A stretch of DNA of 64,000 bases from Saprospiraceae bacterium. Lineage in GTDB: Bacteria; Bacteroidota; Bacteroidia; Chitinophagales; Saprospiraceae. The stretch covers positions 310,001-374,000 of the forward strand of contig JABARE010000001.1 in NCBI GenBank assembly GCA_019187365.1. The letters are read 5' to 3'. This document shows positions 2,319-51,525 of the stretch, in pieces (position 1 is the stretch's first letter; each line of letters begins with the position of its first letter). The position numbers were made by a program, and so were the translations under genes. Below the pieces are notes generated by a model. The model had not been told where the DNA came from and did not search any database. It saw only the letters and a program-made list of their open reading frames with translations.

Positions 2319-2807
2319 TTACGCAGATACATAACGCCAAAGCCAGCTTGAGCCCAGGGGTTTGACCCATTCCCGCCTTAAGCTGCCAAGGGTATCTGCA
2401 AGGGTATCGAAGAAAGCATCCTTTTCATTTATTTCCCCATGCCGGTATTTTTCCCGCAGCGACTCGAGTGTAATGCATTGCACAAGGCCTTGGGCATCCT
2501 GGAAGTAGGCATATTGGCGACTTAGAAAGTCAACTCCTGCAAAATCAGAAAGGGCCCTCAAAAAACGGTAGCTGTCATCAAGGCTGCAACCCCCAACCGC
2601 ATTGCTGGTCTCGTCGACAACCATAACAACAAAATGCCGGTGAAGCAGGTCCCCCGTTGCCCGAAGTGGCATTTGATGGCTGTGCCAGTGTCTTATATAA
2701 TTTTTGATCTGCTCCTGTACATTGTTTTCCAGGTGACCAGGCACTTCCTGATCCGCTGCATAGATCCATACCCTGGAACCATCGGGAAAATCGGAAAAAA
2801 GCTTCAT
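2319..2807 (-). CDS. Conserved Bacteroidota protein of the family mislabelled 'ABC transporter ATPase'
   Basis: A 162-residue cytoplasmic protein without signal peptide or membrane segment. It has the recognisable pattern of a small Bacteroidota family: DGSRVWIYAADQ near the N-terminus, a central FVVMVVDETSNAVGGCSLDDS segment, and a C-terminal LGSSWLWRYV. Database entries often call this family 'ABC transporter ATPase', but there is no Walker A, signature or Walker B motif. Its ATG overlaps the stop of the upstream CCG iron-sulfur gene (ATGA, 2804-2807), so the two are translationally coupled. The genomic link suggests a role with the Fe-S oxidoreductase, perhaps assembly or regulation, but no activity can be read from the sequence. 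Confidence 0.85.
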   Translation of the reverse strand: MKLFSDFPDGSRVWIYAADQEVPGHLENNVQEQIKNYIRHWHSHQMPLRATGDLLHRHFVVMVVDETSNAVGGCSLDDSYRFLRALSDFAGVDFLSRQYAYFQDAQGLVQCITLESLREKYRHGEINEKDAFFDTLADTLGSLRREWVKPLGSSWLWRYVSA

Positions 2808-3580
2808 CGCTGCAAGTTTTGTAATACCAATTCGGCCAGGTCGTAAACCATGATGCGTTCTGCGGGATCCGCCTCTTTGAGCCCATCGCCAAGCATGGTC
2901 AGGCAGAATGGACAATTTGACACAACGGTGGTATTATTTTGTCCGGCGATTTCTTCGGCTCGCTCTAAATTGATGCGTTTTTCTCCAGTTTCTTCCTCCT
3001 TGAACATCTGGCAGCCCCCTGCCCCACAACACAGTCCGCGTTCTCGCGACCGCTCCATTTCTGTAATGTCTTTCTTTAGTGCCTGCAAGACATTTCGCGG
3101 TGCCTCGTATATGCCGTTCGCCCGTCCCAGGTAACAAGAATCGTGGTAACTGACCGTTTCCCTTTCACTTCCTGGCTTCAGACGTATCCTTCCTTCAGCA
3201 ATTAGCTGATCCAAAAAAGTTGCATGGTGAATGACTTCGTAATGGCCACCAAAATCGGGATAATCGTTTTTTAACGTATTAAAACAATGCGGGCAGGTAC
3301 AAACGATTCGTTTTACCTCGTATTGATTCAGGGTCGCTACGTTTTGTATTGCGAGGATTTGGAACAGGAATTCATTACCGGCGCGCCGGGCGGGATCTCC
3401 GGTGCATTTTTCCTCATCCCCCAGGATTGCATAGGAATAGCCGATTGCATCGAGTATGGAACAGAAAGCCCTTGTTACGCGCTGCGCACGCGCATCATAG
3501 CTTCCTGCACACCCGACCCAAAACAACACATCAGGCTTTCTGCCGCTGGCGGCAAGTTCGCTCATCAATTCGGGTTTCAT
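2804..3580 (-). CDS. CCG-domain (Fe-S)-binding oxidoreductase subunit (HdrB/EtfD C-terminal-like)
   Basis: A 258-residue soluble protein of the cysteine-rich CCG family (heterodisulfide reductase B, glycolate oxidase GlcF and lactate LldE/LutA relatives). Two cysteine-rich modules are visible. The first has WVGCAG (Cys24), EKCTGD (Cys59) and CTCPHC (94-99). The second has HDSCYLGR (Cys149), CCGAGG (184-185) and NCPFC (223-226). These would hold one or two iron-sulfur clusters. The start at 3580 removes a 22-residue extension that overlaps the upstream gene and fits the family N-terminus. It lies one base after the stop of the membrane-bound ferredoxin-like gene and overlaps the next gene by four bases, so the three form one operon. 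Confidence 0.9.
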   Translation of the reverse strand: MKPELMSELAASGRKPDVLFWVGCAGSYDARAQRVTRAFCSILDAIGYSYAILGDEEKCTGDPARRAGNEFLFQILAIQNVATLNQYEVKRIVCTCPHCFNTLKNDYPDFGGHYEVIHHATFLDQLIAEGRIRLKPGSERETVSYHDSCYLGRANGIYEAPRNVLQALKKDITEMERSRERGLCCGAGGCQMFKEEETGEKRINLERAEEIAGQNNTTVVSNCPFCLTMLGDGLKEADPAERIMVYDLAELVLQNLQR

Positions 3581-3581
3581 G

Positions 3582-4895
3582 TCAATTCGTTTGCATCCAG
3601 TCCGTGCGGGTGCCTGACATTGACCAGGCTGCCTGGCTGTTTTCAAGGCTGTTGAATAAGGAATTCCAGGAGGCGGGACCAGCCCCTTGCATCAAAATGT
3701 CCCATCGGCGCATTTCAAGGATGGTTTGAAGTGGATTGATCAATACCGGACAGGCTTCGACGCATGCGTTGCAGGTGGTACAAGCGTAGATCTCCTCACG
3801 ACTTATCCGGTCGAACAAACTTTTTCCATCAGCGATTTCCAATTCTCCATTTTCCTTGCGCTGATAACTTGAATTTTTAACCACCTCTTCGCAGCGATCC
3901 CTGATATCCATGATAATTTTGCGTGGGCTCAGACGTTTTCCGGTCTGATTTGCTGGGCATTCTGCTGTGCATCTTCCGCATTCGGTACAAGAAAATGCCT
4001 GCAACAAGGTAGTGCGGTCAAGATGATGGATGTCGGCAGCGCCAAACTGGGGTTCTGCATCCGATGGAGAACCTGGATCCATGCCGAGCATTTCTCGTAC
4101 CTCCCTCTCGACACCTGAAATTTTTTCCATTTTGCCCCTGGCATGCTGATTCCCGTAGTAACTGGCGGGAAAAGCCAGAAAAATATGCAGATGCTTGGAA
4201 TGTGGGAGATAGGCCACAAAACCCAGTATCACCAGGTAGTGCAACCACCAGAACGTTCGTTCGCACATGCCCGCATAAGAGGTCAAATGGGTTTCAAATG
4301 CAGGCTGGGTGAGCCAGGCTGAGAGGAAAAACTTCCCTCCGTCCGGATATATATCCGGTAGCGTCAGTGACAGTGCCTGGTAAGCCCCGTTCATCATCAA
4401 GATGCTGATCACGAGAACAATCTCTCCAAAAAGTATGATGTTGGCATCGCGAAAAGGCCATCCAGTCAGCTCGGGCTTATGGAACCTTCTGACTTTCAGA
4501 ATATTGCGACGTATCAGGAAGACAGCTGTGGCAACCAATGCCAAAGCCGACAGCCCTTCGACCAGATTGATCAATAAGGGATAAAGTACCCCGATCTTGC
4601 CAGCAAAAAATCGGTGTCCCCCGCTTATGCCATCGATGAATATTTCTATGGCCTCCAACTGGGTAAATAGGAAAGCGACGTATATGAACAAATGAAATAT
4701 GCCTGCAATGGGTCTGGAAAACATCTTCTTCTGCCCAAGTGCGAAAAGGGCCATATTTTTCCACCTTTGACCCACTGAGCCATTTACAGGAGCCATCCTT
4801 CCCAAGGAAATGGCCCTGGCAATATCCCGGTATTTTGGGATGGAAAAATAGGCAACTATAGAAGTGACAAAAATGAATACAAGCGCTTGAAACAT
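3582..4895 (-). CDS. Membrane-bound 4Fe-4S protein (NarI/HdrC-like, EtfD N-terminal-like)
   Basis: A 437-residue protein combining a five-helix membrane domain with a two-cluster ferredoxin domain. Membrane segments lie near 1-20, 62-85, 103-128, 152-178 and 213-231. Histidines within or next to them (68, 219, 232, 235, 237) could ligate haem as in NarI-type subunits. The ferredoxin motifs are CTECGRCTAECP (Cys303, 306, 309, 313) and CTTCNACVEACP (Cys372, 375, 378, 382). With the downstream CCG subunit it matches the two halves of mycobacterial EtfD (Rv0338c), proposed to pass electrons from ETF to menaquinone. The etfBA genes lie elsewhere in this window. The function is inference; the domain content is seen directly. 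Confidence 0.88.
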   Translation of the reverse strand: MFQALVFIFVTSIVAYFSIPKYRDIARAISLGRMAPVNGSVGQRWKNMALFALGQKKMFSRPIAGIFHLFIYVAFLFTQLEAIEIFIDGISGGHRFFAGKIGVLYPLLINLVEGLSALALVATAVFLIRRNILKVRRFHKPELTGWPFRDANIILFGEIVLVISILMMNGAYQALSLTLPDIYPDGGKFFLSAWLTQPAFETHLTSYAGMCERTFWWLHYLVILGFVAYLPHSKHLHIFLAFPASYYGNQHARGKMEKISGVEREVREMLGMDPGSPSDAEPQFGAADIHHLDRTTLLQAFSCTECGRCTAECPANQTGKRLSPRKIIMDIRDRCEEVVKNSSYQRKENGELEIADGKSLFDRISREEIYACTTCNACVEACPVLINPLQTILEMRRWDILMQGAGPASWNSLFNSLENSQAAWSMSGTRTDWMQTN

Positions 4896-4957: not shown

Positions 4958-5452
4958 ATGATTATTCTCAACAAAGATCAAATCCGTCAAAAATTCAAGC
5001 GCATGGCCATCGAGATGGTTGAGCGCCATGCTGACGAAAATGAGCTGGTTCTCATTGGAATACTGGACAAGGGGACGAATGTCGCAAACCAGCTGAAGAC
5101 CGCATTGAAGGAACTGAGTTCAATTCAATGTTCCATTGGACAGATCCGGATGAATAAGAAGGACCCTGTAAGCGAATTGGTTGAGCTGAATTTTAAACCT
5201 GCGCAACTTCTGAATAAGTCCGTCATATTGGTAGACGATGTCTCGAATTCCGGCCGAACCCTGTTCTACGCTTTGGGTTGTTTGATGAATGCCAAGCCCA
5301 AATCCATAGAAACGGCGGTTTTGGTGGAACGCATGCATAAGCGATTTCCAGTCGGGATCAGCTACTATGGAATGAGGCTCGCGACCACCCTAAAGGACCA
5401 CATTGAGGTACAGACCTCCTCTGGCGAAGACTGGACGGTAGATTTGCATTAA
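4958..5452 (+). CDS. PyrR-like type I phosphoribosyltransferase
   Basis: A 164-residue cytoplasmic protein of the type I PRTase fold. The PRPP-binding loop VILVDDVSNSGRTL lies near residues 88-101, and the N-terminal region (VLIGILDKGTNVANQL) forms the flexible-loop side. It most resembles the PyrR/uracil-PRTase branch, but no pyrimidine operon is adjacent, so attenuator regulation cannot be claimed. A base-salvage PRTase is equally possible. It is divergent from the iron-sulfur operon, with 62 bases between them. A one-mismatch -7 box (GAATTTTG, 4927-4934) lies 23 bases before the ATG. The gene ends six bases before the convergent patatin gene. Confidence 0.85.
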   Translation: MIILNKDQIRQKFKRMAIEMVERHADENELVLIGILDKGTNVANQLKTALKELSSIQCSIGQIRMNKKDPVSELVELNFKPAQLLNKSVILVDDVSNSGRTLFYALGCLMNAKPKSIETAVLVERMHKRFPVGISYYGMRLATTLKDHIEVQTSSGEDWTVDLH

Positions 5453-44602: not shown

Positions 44603-45193
44603 TTATTTGCGACGGTTAATTTCGTCGCGAATGCGTGCGGCTTTCTCGTAATTTTCTTCCTCCAACACTTTCTGAAGCATTGCTTCCAGCTCCTGAACGC
44701 TGTAGTTGCTGAATGGTTTTGCAGGCTCTTCCTTCTTTTCAACTATTTGCGCAGCCTCCTCCTCTGATTCATCTAAAACGACCCCAGCTGCTTCCATGAT
44801 AAACTCATAGGTGTAAATAGGGCAGTCAAAACGAACCGCCAACGCGAGTGCATCGGAGGTTCGGGAATCGATCTTAAGCACTTCTCCATCCTTTTCGCAA
44901 ATCAGTTGAGAATAAAAAATGCCATCGACGAGGTTGTTGATGACGATTTCTTTGATCTCGATGCCGAAAGATGACAAGGCATTTTTAAACAAGTCATGCG
45001 TGAGCGGGCGGTTTGGTGTCATGCGTTCAAGTACGACGGCAATGGCTTGAGCTTCATACCCACCGATCACTATAGGCAGCCGCCGGTTGCCTTCCAGTTC
45101 ACCCAGCACGATTGCATAGTTCTGCGACTGCGATACGCTATGCGAAAGAGCGGTTATCTCCAGTTCAACAATTTTATTTTCCTGCCCAGCCAT
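44603..45193 (-). CDS. Bifunctional nuclease-domain (DUF151) protein with UVR motif
   Basis: A 196-residue cytoplasmic protein. Residues 5-135 are the bifunctional nuclease (BFN/DUF151) fold: YAIVLGELEGNRRLPIVIG, EAQAIAVVLERM, RPLTHDLFKN, IDSRTSDALALAVRFDCPI. Residues 155-195 form a UvrB/UvrC-like helical hairpin (LEAMLQKVLEEENYEKAARI). The two-domain form is common in Bacteroidota; its physiological role is unclear. It lies six bases after etfA and is probably the third gene of etfB-etfA-bfn. Confidence 0.92.
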   Translation of the reverse strand: MAGQENKIVELEITALSHSVSQSQNYAIVLGELEGNRRLPIVIGGYEAQAIAVVLERMTPNRPLTHDLFKNALSSFGIEIKEIVINNLVDGIFYSQLICEKDGEVLKIDSRTSDALALAVRFDCPIYTYEFIMEAAGVVLDESEEEAAQIVEKKEEPAKPFSNYSVQELEAMLQKVLEEENYEKAARIRDEINRRK

Positions 45194-45199
45194 GTATGC

Positions 45200-46156
45200 T
45201 TATTGACCGTTTTGAATGGCTTGTATGAGTTTGGGGACGACCTCAAAAAGATCACCGCAGACACCATAGTCAGCCGCTTTAAAAAACGGAGCTTCCGGAT
45301 CTTTGTTGATAACAATGATCGTGCGCGAATTGTTAACACCGGCCAGATGCTGAATGGCACCTGAAATTCCAATAGCAATGTACACTTTGGGGCGAATGGC
45401 TGTTCCGGTTTGACCGACGTGTTCATGGTGAGGCCGCCACCCGGCATCCGCCACTGGTCTGGAGCAGGCCGTTCCCGCATGGAGCAATTCTGCCAGTGAT
45501 TCTACCAAACCCCAATTCGCTGGGTCCTTGAGCCCTCTGCCTCCGGAAACGACGACGTCGGCTTCAGTAAGAGGGGTTTTTCCGGAAGACATCCTATGTT
45601 CAACCACCTGCATGCGCGCATCAATGGTAAGTGGGCCCAATTCAATGTACTCCGGGGAGTTTGGGTCCTGCCCCTGCTTTACTCCGTAAGCCTTTGGAAG
45701 GATAGCCACCAGGCCGATCTCTGAATGAATAGCACACCAGGCATAGGCCTTTCCAGAAAAGACGCTTTTCTTGTAAAGCGCCTTCCCTTCTGCCCACTCA
45801 AATCCACAAACGTTTGAAACGAGTCCGGCGTTCAGACGAATAGCCAATTGGCCTCCAAGGGCCTTACCAAGACTGTTGTAACTAAAAATGATGCGTTCCG
45901 GTGTAGACTTCCCAGCCAGTGCCGTCATGGCGGCCAGGTATTCCTCGACCCTTGCATTGTCGCCCGCTGCAGGAAAAGTATACACGCTCCGGAGATTATA
46001 GGCGTGAAGCGATTTATCCTGCAATCCATCCGGCACAAGCGCTACCAGATCCTTTCCACCCTTCCGGGCAAGATCATCCGCAAAACTCAGAGCCTCCAGA
46101 CTGCTGCTGGTAAGCATTCCCGACTTGTGATCGCAAACAACTACATGCATTCCCAT
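45200..46156 (-). CDS. etfA: Electron transfer flavoprotein, alpha subunit
   Basis: A 318-residue FAD-binding subunit. The N-terminal domain pairs with EtfB. The C-terminal FAD domain has VVVSGGRGLKDPANW and the signature RPKVYIAIGISGAIQHLAG, then IIVINKDPEAPFFKAADYGV. It takes electrons from acyl-CoA dehydrogenases and passes them to a membrane quinone reductase. Its ATG overlaps the etfB stop by one base (TAATG), and the bifunctional nuclease gene follows after six bases. Confidence 0.97.
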   Translation of the reverse strand: MGMHVVVCDHKSGMLTSSSLEALSFADDLARKGGKDLVALVPDGLQDKSLHAYNLRSVYTFPAAGDNARVEEYLAAMTALAGKSTPERIIFSYNSLGKALGGQLAIRLNAGLVSNVCGFEWAEGKALYKKSVFSGKAYAWCAIHSEIGLVAILPKAYGVKQGQDPNSPEYIELGPLTIDARMQVVEHRMSSGKTPLTEADVVVSGGRGLKDPANWGLVESLAELLHAGTACSRPVADAGWRPHHEHVGQTGTAIRPKVYIAIGISGAIQHLAGVNNSRTIIVINKDPEAPFFKAADYGVCGDLFEVVPKLIQAIQNGQ

Positions 46157-46896
46157 TAGATTAACTTCAGATCGTTTTTCAATACGTTTACCAGCTCATG
46201 AATGTCGTCCGGAGCGATCATTCTGACACCCTGTTTCTCCTGGGGCAATTCGTAACGGACCACTTCTGTCAATGCAGAGATGGATGAGGCAGGCAATACC
46301 TCGAGTGGTTTTTTCTTGGCGTCGATGATGCCCTTCATATTGGGGATGCGCTGTTCAGCCAGACCCTTTGCAGCAGAAATAACCGCAGGTGGTCTCACCT
46401 CCACAATCTGAGTACCGCCTTCAATGTCCGTGCTGCAACGCAATATGCCATCGGCAAAGTCGAGCTTAGAACAAAGGGATACAAAGGGCAGATTGAGCAA
46501 TGCAGCCAGCATTGAACCCATTTCTGAACTATTGTAATCGATGGTCTCCTTTCCGGTAAAAATGATATCATATCCTCTATCTTCCGCAAACCGGGCAATC
46601 TGCTCTGCTACTGACCGGGTTTCCGGCTCCGGGTCATCGATGCGAAAGGCTGCATCGGCACCAATGGCCAGCGCCTTTCGAATCAACATTTCGGATGCTG
46701 ATGACCCAACGTGAACGACGTCGACCTGTCCGCCCAGGGCGTCGCGCAACTCAATGGCACGCACCAAAGCGTACCACTCGTCGTAAGGGTTGAGAATGAA
46801 TTGAACACCTTCTTCAGAAAATTTCACTCCTGCTGCGTCAAATGCGATGCGCGCCGTAGTATCGGCCGTTTTGCTCAGGCAGACCAACAATTTCAT
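46156..46896 (-). CDS. etfB: Electron transfer flavoprotein, beta subunit
   Basis: A 246-residue subunit. Landmarks are MKLLVCLSKTADTTARI at the start, FILNPYDEWYALVRAIEL, IIFTGKETIDYNSSEMG (AMP/adenine region) and the recognition-loop-like PPAVISAAKGLAEQRIPNMKGI. Together with EtfA it forms the soluble ETF heterodimer. The start at 46896 is set by the family N-terminus; an upstream in-frame start would include the -7 box. It diverges from a small TPR gene. Confidence 0.96.
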   Translation of the reverse strand: MKLLVCLSKTADTTARIAFDAAGVKFSEEGVQFILNPYDEWYALVRAIELRDALGGQVDVVHVGSSASEMLIRKALAIGADAAFRIDDPEPETRSVAEQIARFAEDRGYDIIFTGKETIDYNSSEMGSMLAALLNLPFVSLCSKLDFADGILRCSTDIEGGTQIVEVRPPAVISAAKGLAEQRIPNMKGIIDAKKKPLEVLPASSISALTEVVRYELPQEKQGVRMIAPDDIHELVNVLKNDLKLI

Positions 46897-46914
46897 CGAT
46901 TTCTCAATTTGCCG

Positions 46915-46922
46915 CAAAGATA
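46915..46922 (-). promoter_or_regulatory. -7 box TATCTTTG for etfB-etfA-bfn
   Basis: Exact TAnnTTTG on the minus strand, 18 bases before the etfB ATG. Immediately next to it on the plus strand is TATATTTA (46923-46930), a one-mismatch box for the TPR gene, so the two promoters are back to back. Confidence 0.6.
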
Positions 46923-46959
46923 TATATTTACCGATAAGAAGCACCAGACATCAAGCCCT

Positions 46960-49881: not shown

Positions 49882-51525
49882 ATGGCCATGCAAATGAAAG
49901 AAAACGTACAACAGAACCTAAACGAAGACCATTATAAGCTCCTGTTATCAAAATTGGGCAAGACCGTAGCTAAAATTGAAGAAGGTGGTGGCTTAAAAAA
50001 ACTGGAAGCCCAGAGAGCAGACGGCAAGTTGACCGCACGTGAGCGGCTGGAACACCTTTTTGACCATGGAAGTCCACGATTTGAAATTGGAGCACTCGCT
50101 GGTTTTGAAATGTATGAGGAGCATGGGGGATGTCCGGCAGGCGGAGTCATTGTCATGCTGGGGTTCATACGCTCAAAGCTATGCATTGCCGTTGCCAACG
50201 ATGCATCGGTAAAGGCAGGTGCCTGGTTTCCCATCACCGGCAAGAAGAATCTTCGAGCCCAGGAAATAGCTTTGGAAAACAGAATTCCCATCGTCTATCT
50301 CGTAGACAGTGCCGGCGTTTACCTTCCGCTCCAGGACGAGATCTTTCCCGATAAAGAAAATTTTGGACGGATCTTTAGGAATAACGCCATTTTGTCGTCG
50401 AGGGGGATCCCTCAAATTGCTGCCATCATGGGGAGTTGTGTAGCCGGAGGTGCTTATTTGCCCATCATGTCGGACGAAGCGTTGATTGTGGAAAAGACCG
50501 GTTCTATTTTTCTGGCTGGCCCTTACCTGGTTCGGGCGGCCATCGGGGAGCAGGTAGATGCTGAAACACTTGGAGGGGCTTCAACGCACTGCGAAATCTC
50601 AGGAGTAACCGACTACAAAATGAAAAGCGATGTTGCATGCATCGAAACCATTCGAGACCTTATCGACAAGGTCAATGTCGAACCCGTCGTGCGCTTCGAT
50701 TGGAGGGAGTCTTTGCCACCCAAACGCGAAGCGGCTTCAATGCTTAAACTCTTTCCGGTTGACGGACAGAAACCCTACAGCATGTCAGAAATCCTGGAAT
50801 GCATCGTTGACGGGTCCGAACTTTTATGGTATAAGGAACATTACGGAAAGACCCTGCTTTGCGCCTATGCACGCATCGGAGGTTATGCTGTCGGCATCGT
50901 AGCCAATGACCGGAGGATCGTAAAATCAGGTAAGGGCGAAATGCAAATGGGGGGAGTCATTTATTCAGATTCAGCAGACAAAGCTGCCCGTTTTGTTATG
51001 AACTGTAACCAAAAGCGCATACCGTTGATCTTCTTTCACGATGTCACCGGCTTTATGGTAGGCACTCGCTCCGAACACGGTGGAATCATTAAAGATGGTG
51101 CTAAAATGGTAAACGCTGTGGCGAATTCAACCGTTCCAAAATTTACCGTAATAGTCGGAAATTCCTACGGTGCTGGCAATTACGCAATGTGTGGCAAGGC
51201 TTACGACCCGAGGTTGATCCTCGCCTGGCCCAGTGCCAAAATTGCAGTCATGGGTGGCTCGCAGGCAGCAAATGTGCTTTTGCAGATCCAGCTCAGTTCG
51301 ATGAAGTCGAAGGGAAAATCCCTCACTCCCGAAGAGGAAAAAACGCTGTTTGACCAGATCAACGATAAATACAACCACCAAACAAGCCCCTACTATGCCG
51401 CAGCAAGGTTGTGGGTAGATGCGATCATCGATCCAAGGCAGACCCGTGATTGGCTTATCATGGGAATTCAGGCAAGCAGCTTCGCGGACATCTCCAAGTT
51501 CAATCCGGGTGTCATTCAAACCTGA
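49882..51525 (+). CDS. Acyl-CoA carboxylase carboxyltransferase (beta) subunit, methylcrotonyl-/propionyl-CoA type
   Basis: A 547-residue carboxyltransferase of the biotin-dependent acyl-CoA carboxylase family. The N-half has GKLTARERLEHLFDHGSPRFEIG and CPAGGVIVMLGFI. The oxyanion loops are IMGSCVAGGAYLP (N-half) and VGNSYGAGNYAMCGKAYDP (C-half). The GGASTHCEISGVTDY segment and the terminal KFNPGVIQT suit the methylcrotonyl-CoA (leucine degradation) branch. Propionyl- or geranyl-CoA cannot be excluded. The biotin carboxylase partner is not in the window. The start may be any of three close ATGs (49882, 49888, 49894). Confidence 0.9.
   Translation: MAMQMKENVQQNLNEDHYKLLLSKLGKTVAKIEEGGGLKKLEAQRADGKLTARERLEHLFDHGSPRFEIGALAGFEMYEEHGGCPAGGVIVMLGFIRSKLCIAVANDASVKAGAWFPITGKKNLRAQEIALENRIPIVYLVDSAGVYLPLQDEIFPDKENFGRIFRNNAILSSRGIPQIAAIMGSCVAGGAYLPIMSDEALIVEKTGSIFLAGPYLVRAAIGEQVDAETLGGASTHCEISGVTDYKMKSDVACIETIRDLIDKVNVEPVVRFDWRESLPPKREAASMLKLFPVDGQKPYSMSEILECIVDGSELLWYKEHYGKTLLCAYARIGGYAVGIVANDRRIVKSGKGEMQMGGVIYSDSADKAARFVMNCNQKRIPLIFFHDVTGFMVGTRSEHGGIIKDGAKMVNAVANSTVPKFTVIVGNSYGAGNYAMCGKAYDPRLILAWPSAKIAVMGGSQAANVLLQIQLSSMKSKGKSLTPEEEKTLFDQINDKYNHQTSPYYAAARLWVDAIIDPRQTRDWLIMGIQASSFADISKFNPGVIQT

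Follow-up and report, generated by a model that had tools for sequence, protein, structure and literature searches.

A two-gene form of EtfD predicted to pass electrons from ETF to menaquinone in a Saprospiraceae bacterium and related Bacteroidota

Which protein accepts the electrons of the electron-transferring flavoprotein (ETF) in a bacterium with genes for ETF and for acyl-CoA dehydrogenases, and with no recognizable ETF:quinone oxidoreductase (ETF-QO)? The question is raised by three adjoining genes in a stretch of 64,000 nucleotides from a Saprospiraceae bacterium (assembly GCA_019187365.1, contig JABARE010000001.1, positions 310,001 to 374,000), here called the window. Two of these genes, MEM and CCG, encode the parts that EtfD of Mycobacterium smegmatis carries on one polypeptide; the third, SML, encodes a small protein. 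We conclude that the split pair is a real and widespread two-gene variant of EtfD, and that its products represent the two halves of EtfD and probably form one membrane complex, which would pass electrons from ETF to menaquinone. The proposal draws on what the sequence shows: the domain content, the ligands for clusters and heme, and the order of the genes, together with a genome in which neither ETF-QO nor a second CCG protein was found, and co-occurrence with ETF. The genes, re-read from the sequence, are as follows:

3582-4895, minus strand: MEM, 437 amino acids, membrane/ferredoxin subunit of the split EtfD
2804-3580, minus strand: CCG, 258 amino acids from the ATG (frame open to 3646), two CCG domains
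2319-2807, minus strand: SML, 162 amino acids from the ATG (frame open to 2915), small operon partner
45200-46156, minus strand: etfA, ETF alpha subunit, Pfam PF00766
46156-46944, minus strand: etfB, ETF beta subunit, Pfam PF01012

The layout of three open reading frames on the minus strand at 2319-4895 agrees with that given in a first-pass annotation made from the letters of the window, and its placement of etfB and etfA elsewhere in the window was borne out by Pfam matches at 45200-46944. The MEM stop and the CCG start are separated by 1 bp, and the CCG and SML genes share a 4-nucleotide overlap, ATGA. The distance from the MEM-CCG pair to etfBA is approximately 40 kb. A promoter scan gave a count at chance level and a terminator scan gave 6 hits where 3.5 were expected, and no weight is placed on either.

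Searches against PDB sequences with phmmer matched both proteins to the same chain, 9ojn_A, which is EtfD of M. smegmatis (MSMEG_0690) (PMC13083937). MEM aligned to residues 11-332 and 406-475 (E 7e-28) and the CCG protein to residues 496-745 (E 2.9e-69), and the next PDB chains for either protein followed only at E 0.004 or worse. The dicluster 4Fe-4S matches of MEM exceeded the Pfam cut-off. The second protein had been annotated with one CCG domain; the domain type was confirmed (107 bits, where the cut-off is 20.6), and two such stretches were found in the 258 residues instead of one. An AlphaFold2 model of MEM, built from a 20-row alignment (predicted local distance difference test score, pLDDT, 80.9), displayed five long helices within the first 232 residues, which presumably span the membrane. 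The sole Foldseek match of this model in the PDB under E 0.001 was 9ojn (E 3.7e-12, TMq 0.72), and NarI chains were found only at E 0.76 or worse. The earlier label of a NarI-like membrane domain thus draws its support from the match to EtfD.

The ligands of the four iron-sulfur clusters were located by alignment to EtfD. Cluster D1 is a linear [3Fe-4S] cluster bound by Cys503, Cys538, Cys581 and Cys584, and D2 is a noncubane [4Fe-4S] cluster bound by Cys637, Cys672, Cys673, Cys709 and Cys712 together with His583 (PMC13083937). In the CCG protein the D1 ligands correspond to C24, C59, C96 and C99, and the D2 ligands to C149, C184, C185, C223, C226 and H98, so that all 10 are retained. Thr539 of EtfD corresponds to T60, and the extra Cys of heterodisulfide reductase (Hdr) is not present at that position. 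The eight cysteines of the D3/D4 cubane clusters, already counted in the first-pass annotation, all mapped to MEM (C303, C306, C309, C313, C372, C375, C378 and C382). The axial heme b pair of EtfD, His78 and His241, aligned with H68 and H237 of MEM, which also retains EtfD R137, R306, F85 and F230. In 15 of 15 split MEM rows the D3/D4 cysteines, the heme histidines and these Arg and Phe positions were invariant.

For the CCG subunit, the ligand counts cover 140 rows of split proteins, which include the window protein and amount to 114 distinct sequences. Seven further rows that belong to neither the split nor the one-chain class were kept out of these counts: a long upstream frame (one row), fragments around an insert (four rows), and L227 and L228. 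All 140 of 140 rows retain the four D1 cysteines and His583, and position 539 was Thr in 138 and Ser in 2. Four rows showed a gap at 709/712 because of an insert. In two genomes (G072 and G166, loci L209 and L210) an insert of approximately 22-29 amino acids was observed just ahead of the last CxxC motif of the CCG protein. All D1 and D2 ligands, the D3/D4 cysteines and the heme histidines are kept, and the pair is therefore, judged by its residues, of the full EtfD type, being neither FadF/DgcB-like nor Hdr-like.

The content of the host genome (3.66 Mb, 73 contigs, completeness 100) agrees with a role of the pair as the ETF acceptor. The CCG protein of the window was the only one found genome-wide. 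No ETF-QO had been visible in the window, and the statement holds for the whole genome, which gave 0 matches to PF05187 (Fer4_ETF_QO) in a search in which 3 of 14 controls were positive. The single match to ETF alpha (PF00766) was the etfA gene of the window, and five acyl-CoA dehydrogenases were identified by PF02771. MenD was not found in the genome; two proteins of PF02621, the family of MqnA and MqnD in the futalosine route to menaquinone, were present.

We surveyed 345 genomes of Bacteroidota for EtfD, ETF and ETF-QO. A CCG match at E 1e-5 was obtained in 252 genomes, 209 of them with a strong match (E 3.9e-46 or better) and 43 with a weak one (E 1e-5 to 3.8e-11). The weak matches were not counted as EtfD; the gap between the two sets is wide, the dividing line having been set once it had been seen. 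ETF alpha was present in 334 genomes, 61 carried ETF-QO over the cut-off and 284 did not, and EtfD, split or one-chain, would offer an acceptor in 209. Every one of the 209 genomes with strong EtfD encoded ETF alpha, as compared to 125 of the 136 others. The co-occurrence proposed earlier is thus seen in one direction only. EtfD and ETF-QO were found together in three genomes (G005, G087 and G221). Among the ETF-bearing genomes, these 3 had both acceptors, 55 had ETF-QO only, 206 had EtfD only and 70 had neither (Fisher p 3.6e-24 for EtfD versus ETF-QO, a value that ignores shared ancestry). Within a single family, f17, EtfD was found in 23 genomes, ETF-QO in 50 and both in 1, with one more showing an ETF-QO match below the cut-off; the match of G229 lies below the cut-off and is outside the count of 61. 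EtfD and ETF-QO thus replace one another within one family.

Gene order provides a more direct connection at some loci. Among the 20 split loci retrieved, two from family f18 (L069 and L071) have the order etfB-etfA-MEM-CCG. At L067 (f44) etfBA is convergent and beside CCG, and at L081 it follows approximately 4.9 kb past CCG on the same strand. The only named locus with a link to etf genes, L167, lies on the same contig as L069. For the one-chain form, no etf gene was found in the stretches retrieved around 20 loci. In G180, etfA is 7.1 kb from a one-chain EtfD. Both places are given for four genomes of f17, and there a distance of 1.5-3.4 kb separates the matched stretches of EtfD and etfA, which share a strand. 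Together with the D1/D2 ligands and the rare overlap with ETF-QO, the etfB-etfA-MEM-CCG order supports the earlier suggestion that the split pair is the ETF acceptor. Two findings that would have spoken against that suggestion, a canonical etfQO in the genome and a lack of co-occurrence with etf genes, were looked for and did not emerge. We predict that electrons released in the breakdown of fatty acids and amino acids reach menaquinone through this pair in the host and in many of its relatives.

Several observations weigh against this assignment. No ETF gene was found within approximately 10 kb at 16 of the 20 split loci, the pair in the window being likewise unlinked, and 79 of 80 named loci had none nearby, many of these being short contigs. 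Of the 334 ETF-bearing genomes, 70 have neither strong EtfD nor ETF-QO (for example G003, G026 and G230), and therefore ETF is not always in need of one of these two acceptors. The genome comparisons share ancestry and hence are not independent tests. The C-terminal tail, which is the AlphaFold3-predicted docking site for ETF on mycobacterial EtfD (PMC13083937), is missing here. Finally, R150, one of the three heme-propionate arginines of EtfD (R137, R150 and R306; PMC13083937), aligns with E142 of MEM, and all 15 of the split MEM rows have Glu there.

The unlinked loci, and the 70 ETF-bearing genomes that manage without the pair, would fit a menaquinone reductase that is EtfD-like in build and fed mainly by another flavoprotein or dehydrogenase. 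Such a donor would not account for the presence of ETF alpha in all strong-EtfD genomes, for the direct order of the four genes in two genomes or for the rarity of overlap with ETF-QO, and the nearest relative of known structure is EtfD itself. We therefore consider a donor other than ETF unlikely. Rnf was tried as a general acceptor in the genomes with neither EtfD nor ETF-QO and was rejected; RnfC exceeded the cut-off in 2 of 40 genomes sampled from these 70, as compared to 3 of 40 sampled from the 209 EtfD genomes.

With ETF as the donor, a sequence of steps can be proposed. Acyl-CoA dehydrogenases would reduce ETF, and the reduced ETF would dock on the CCG subunit and deliver its electrons to D1 or D2. 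The electrons would then follow the path D1-D2-D3-D4-heme b-menaquinone, after the order from D1 to heme b that was proposed for single-chain EtfD (PMC13083937), and the step from D2 to D3 would cross the interface of the two subunits. The split form makes a clean prediction for knockouts. It would also allow the linear [3Fe-4S] cluster, which according to PMC13083937 has not been seen in other protein structures, to be studied on a separate protein of 258 amino acids.

The same components could work mainly in reverse, with electrons from menaquinol passing via ETF to an enoyl-CoA reductase, as proposed for the EMO of Syntrophus in enoyl-CoA respiration (PMC8805022). The five acyl-CoA dehydrogenase genes of the host fit oxidation as well and do not settle the direction. 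Relatives are aerobic. We regard operation mainly in reverse as very improbable.

Another reading would place the CCG protein in a different quinone-linked system, such as LutA/GlcF/GlpC or heterodisulfide reductase, and take its position beside MEM as chance. Its best NCBIfam models were indeed TfrB, LdhH and GlpC, yet all scores were far below the cut-offs (TfrB 119 versus 385 bits, LdhH 97 versus 800, GlpC 66.5 versus 278 and GlcF 21 versus 333). No Hdr model was listed for the CCG protein, and those listed for MEM were all below cut-off. The match of the CCG protein to EtfD at E 2.9e-69, the Thr in place of the Hdr Cys at position 539 and the His at 583 leave very little probability for a chance neighbour from another system.

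The assignment to EtfD leads to the question of how the two forms are related. Among the matches listed, CCG frames were 256-412 amino acids long in genomes labelled as belonging to the same class, and mostly 659-781 amino acids outside that class; MEM and CCG were on one frame in the 20 one-chain loci retrieved. Split genes were likewise seen in families f18 and f44, to which the same-class label does not apply. A quick tree was built from 84 CCG rows and rooted on M. smegmatis. The 46 true split rows clustered in one group (Shimodaira-Hasegawa-like approximate likelihood ratio test, SH-aLRT, 91), which adjoined 21 one-chain rows (82); L227 and L228, proteins of another kind of approximately 430 amino acids, were not counted as split. 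One fission is therefore the simplest reading, with moderate tree support: EtfD was most likely divided a single time, between its ferredoxin and CCG domains, in a bacterium ancestral to the carrier lineages. MEM and CCG are 4.3 kb apart in L072, and MEM was not seen within the approximately 10 kb retrieved at 4 of the 20 split loci. In named loci L138 and L161 the MEM gene itself is broken into two frames, which would fit an artefact of sequencing or assembly. As the source of the split, an artefact is already refuted by recurrence, since dozens of genomes from several families carry MEM and CCG on separate frames; the spacing in L072 and the single group of 46 rows also speak against it.

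The characterised EtfD proteins are single polypeptides, unlike the pair in the window, and we do not take this state as defining. No title among the matches listed in a literature search concerned a two-gene EtfD of Bacteroidota, although an earlier description may exist, and the terms 'bacteroid', 'split' and 'fused' are absent from the text of PMC13083937.

Within the one-chain proteins, the D1 cysteines were present in 32 of 35 rows. The three without them (L223, L224 and L225) are from G005, G087 and G135, and two of these genomes also carry ETF-QO. Four of the 35 (L219-L222, from G209, G221, G020 and G153 of family f17) have Cys at the Thr539 position, as in Hdr, and are those with etfA close by. 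Among 45 genomes without strong EtfD (26 with SML and 19 others), some CCG protein was found in 28, with frames mostly of approximately 240-350 or 850-1220 amino acids. Frames of approximately 1000 amino acids with a weak CCG match were observed in G096, G085, G239 and other genomes that have no EtfD.

The small third gene, SML, had been suggested to encode a dedicated partner of the pair. The protein gave no Pfam or NCBIfam match at E 0.001 and no Foldseek match under E 0.001, and a 94-row profile searched against PDB sequences returned nothing up to E 1. It appears to consist of an N-terminal ferredoxin-like alpha/beta part followed by a C-terminal GYF-like part at residues 97-162. The SML family was present in 124 of the surveyed genomes; strong EtfD is missing from 26 of them, of which 7 are without ETF alpha as well. 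All three genes, MEM, CCG and SML, are present in Chitinophaga rupis DSM 21039 (locus L196). No linked copy of SML was found at the three split pairs directly beside etfBA. The operon linkage and the conservation of SML stand, but a role as a strict EtfD partner was rejected, since the family also occurs without EtfD in these 26 genomes. SML often accompanies the pair in the operon and may act in assembly or docking, but the design does not depend on it.

At 11 of 17 loci taken from other lineages, SML was within 1.5 kb of a gene for a TrkA-type ion channel (L106, L107, L110-L114, L116-L118 and L120), and a gene for a YkuD L,D-transpeptidase was often near too. Three of the 17 other-lineage genomes have a one-chain EtfD, and of the 11 with the channel gene only G215 (L120) has a strong EtfD match. 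A more far-reaching and doubtful possibility is that, in this branch of Bacteroidota, a single cut divided EtfD into a membrane wire and a detachable CCG subunit for electron entry, which bears the linear [3Fe-4S] cluster, with SML standing in for the missing tail that binds ETF. If so, SML would dock ETF or the CCG subunit on MEM, and the entry module would be soluble, regulated and perhaps shared.

Compared with known systems, the pair is closest to M. smegmatis EtfD (PDB 9ojn; PMC13083937), with which it shares the cluster ligands, the heme histidines, the five long helices and the domain order. The mycobacterial protein is encoded by one gene and has R150 and a long disordered C-terminal tail, whereas the window has two genes, a Glu at this position, no tail and SML in addition. 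The EMO of Syntrophus aciditrophicus has the same proposed role, from ETF to (methyl)menaquinone via heme b and Fe-S clusters, but is described as diheme (PMC8805022), whereas the ligands present in the split pair are those of the single heme observed in EtfD. FadF of Bacillus subtilis and DgcB of Pseudomonas aeruginosa are EtfD homologues of ETF-linked catabolism whose C-terminal tail is short or absent. Both are without the D1 cysteines (PMC13083937), all four of which are present in the CCG protein of the window. The mitochondrial-type ETF-QO (ETFDH, PF05187) has the same proposed task and is an unrelated protein (PMC13083937). HdrDE and HdrBC have a homologous soluble part, and HdrDE is likewise a two-subunit membrane enzyme (PMC13083937). 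Hdr has an extra Cys where the CCG protein has Thr60. HdrE is the membrane subunit and HdrD holds the 4Fe-4S and CCG domains together, so the parts are divided differently from those of the window pair.

Three other genes of the window were noted. A phosphoribosyltransferase gene (4958-5452) is divergent to MEM, and a relative was present in 29 of 80 named loci. A gene with a bifunctional-nuclease domain (44603-45193) is located on the same strand 6 bp after etfA. At 49882-51525 lies a gene for an acyl-CoA carboxylase-type carboxyl transferase subunit, which would fit branched-chain or propionate catabolism.

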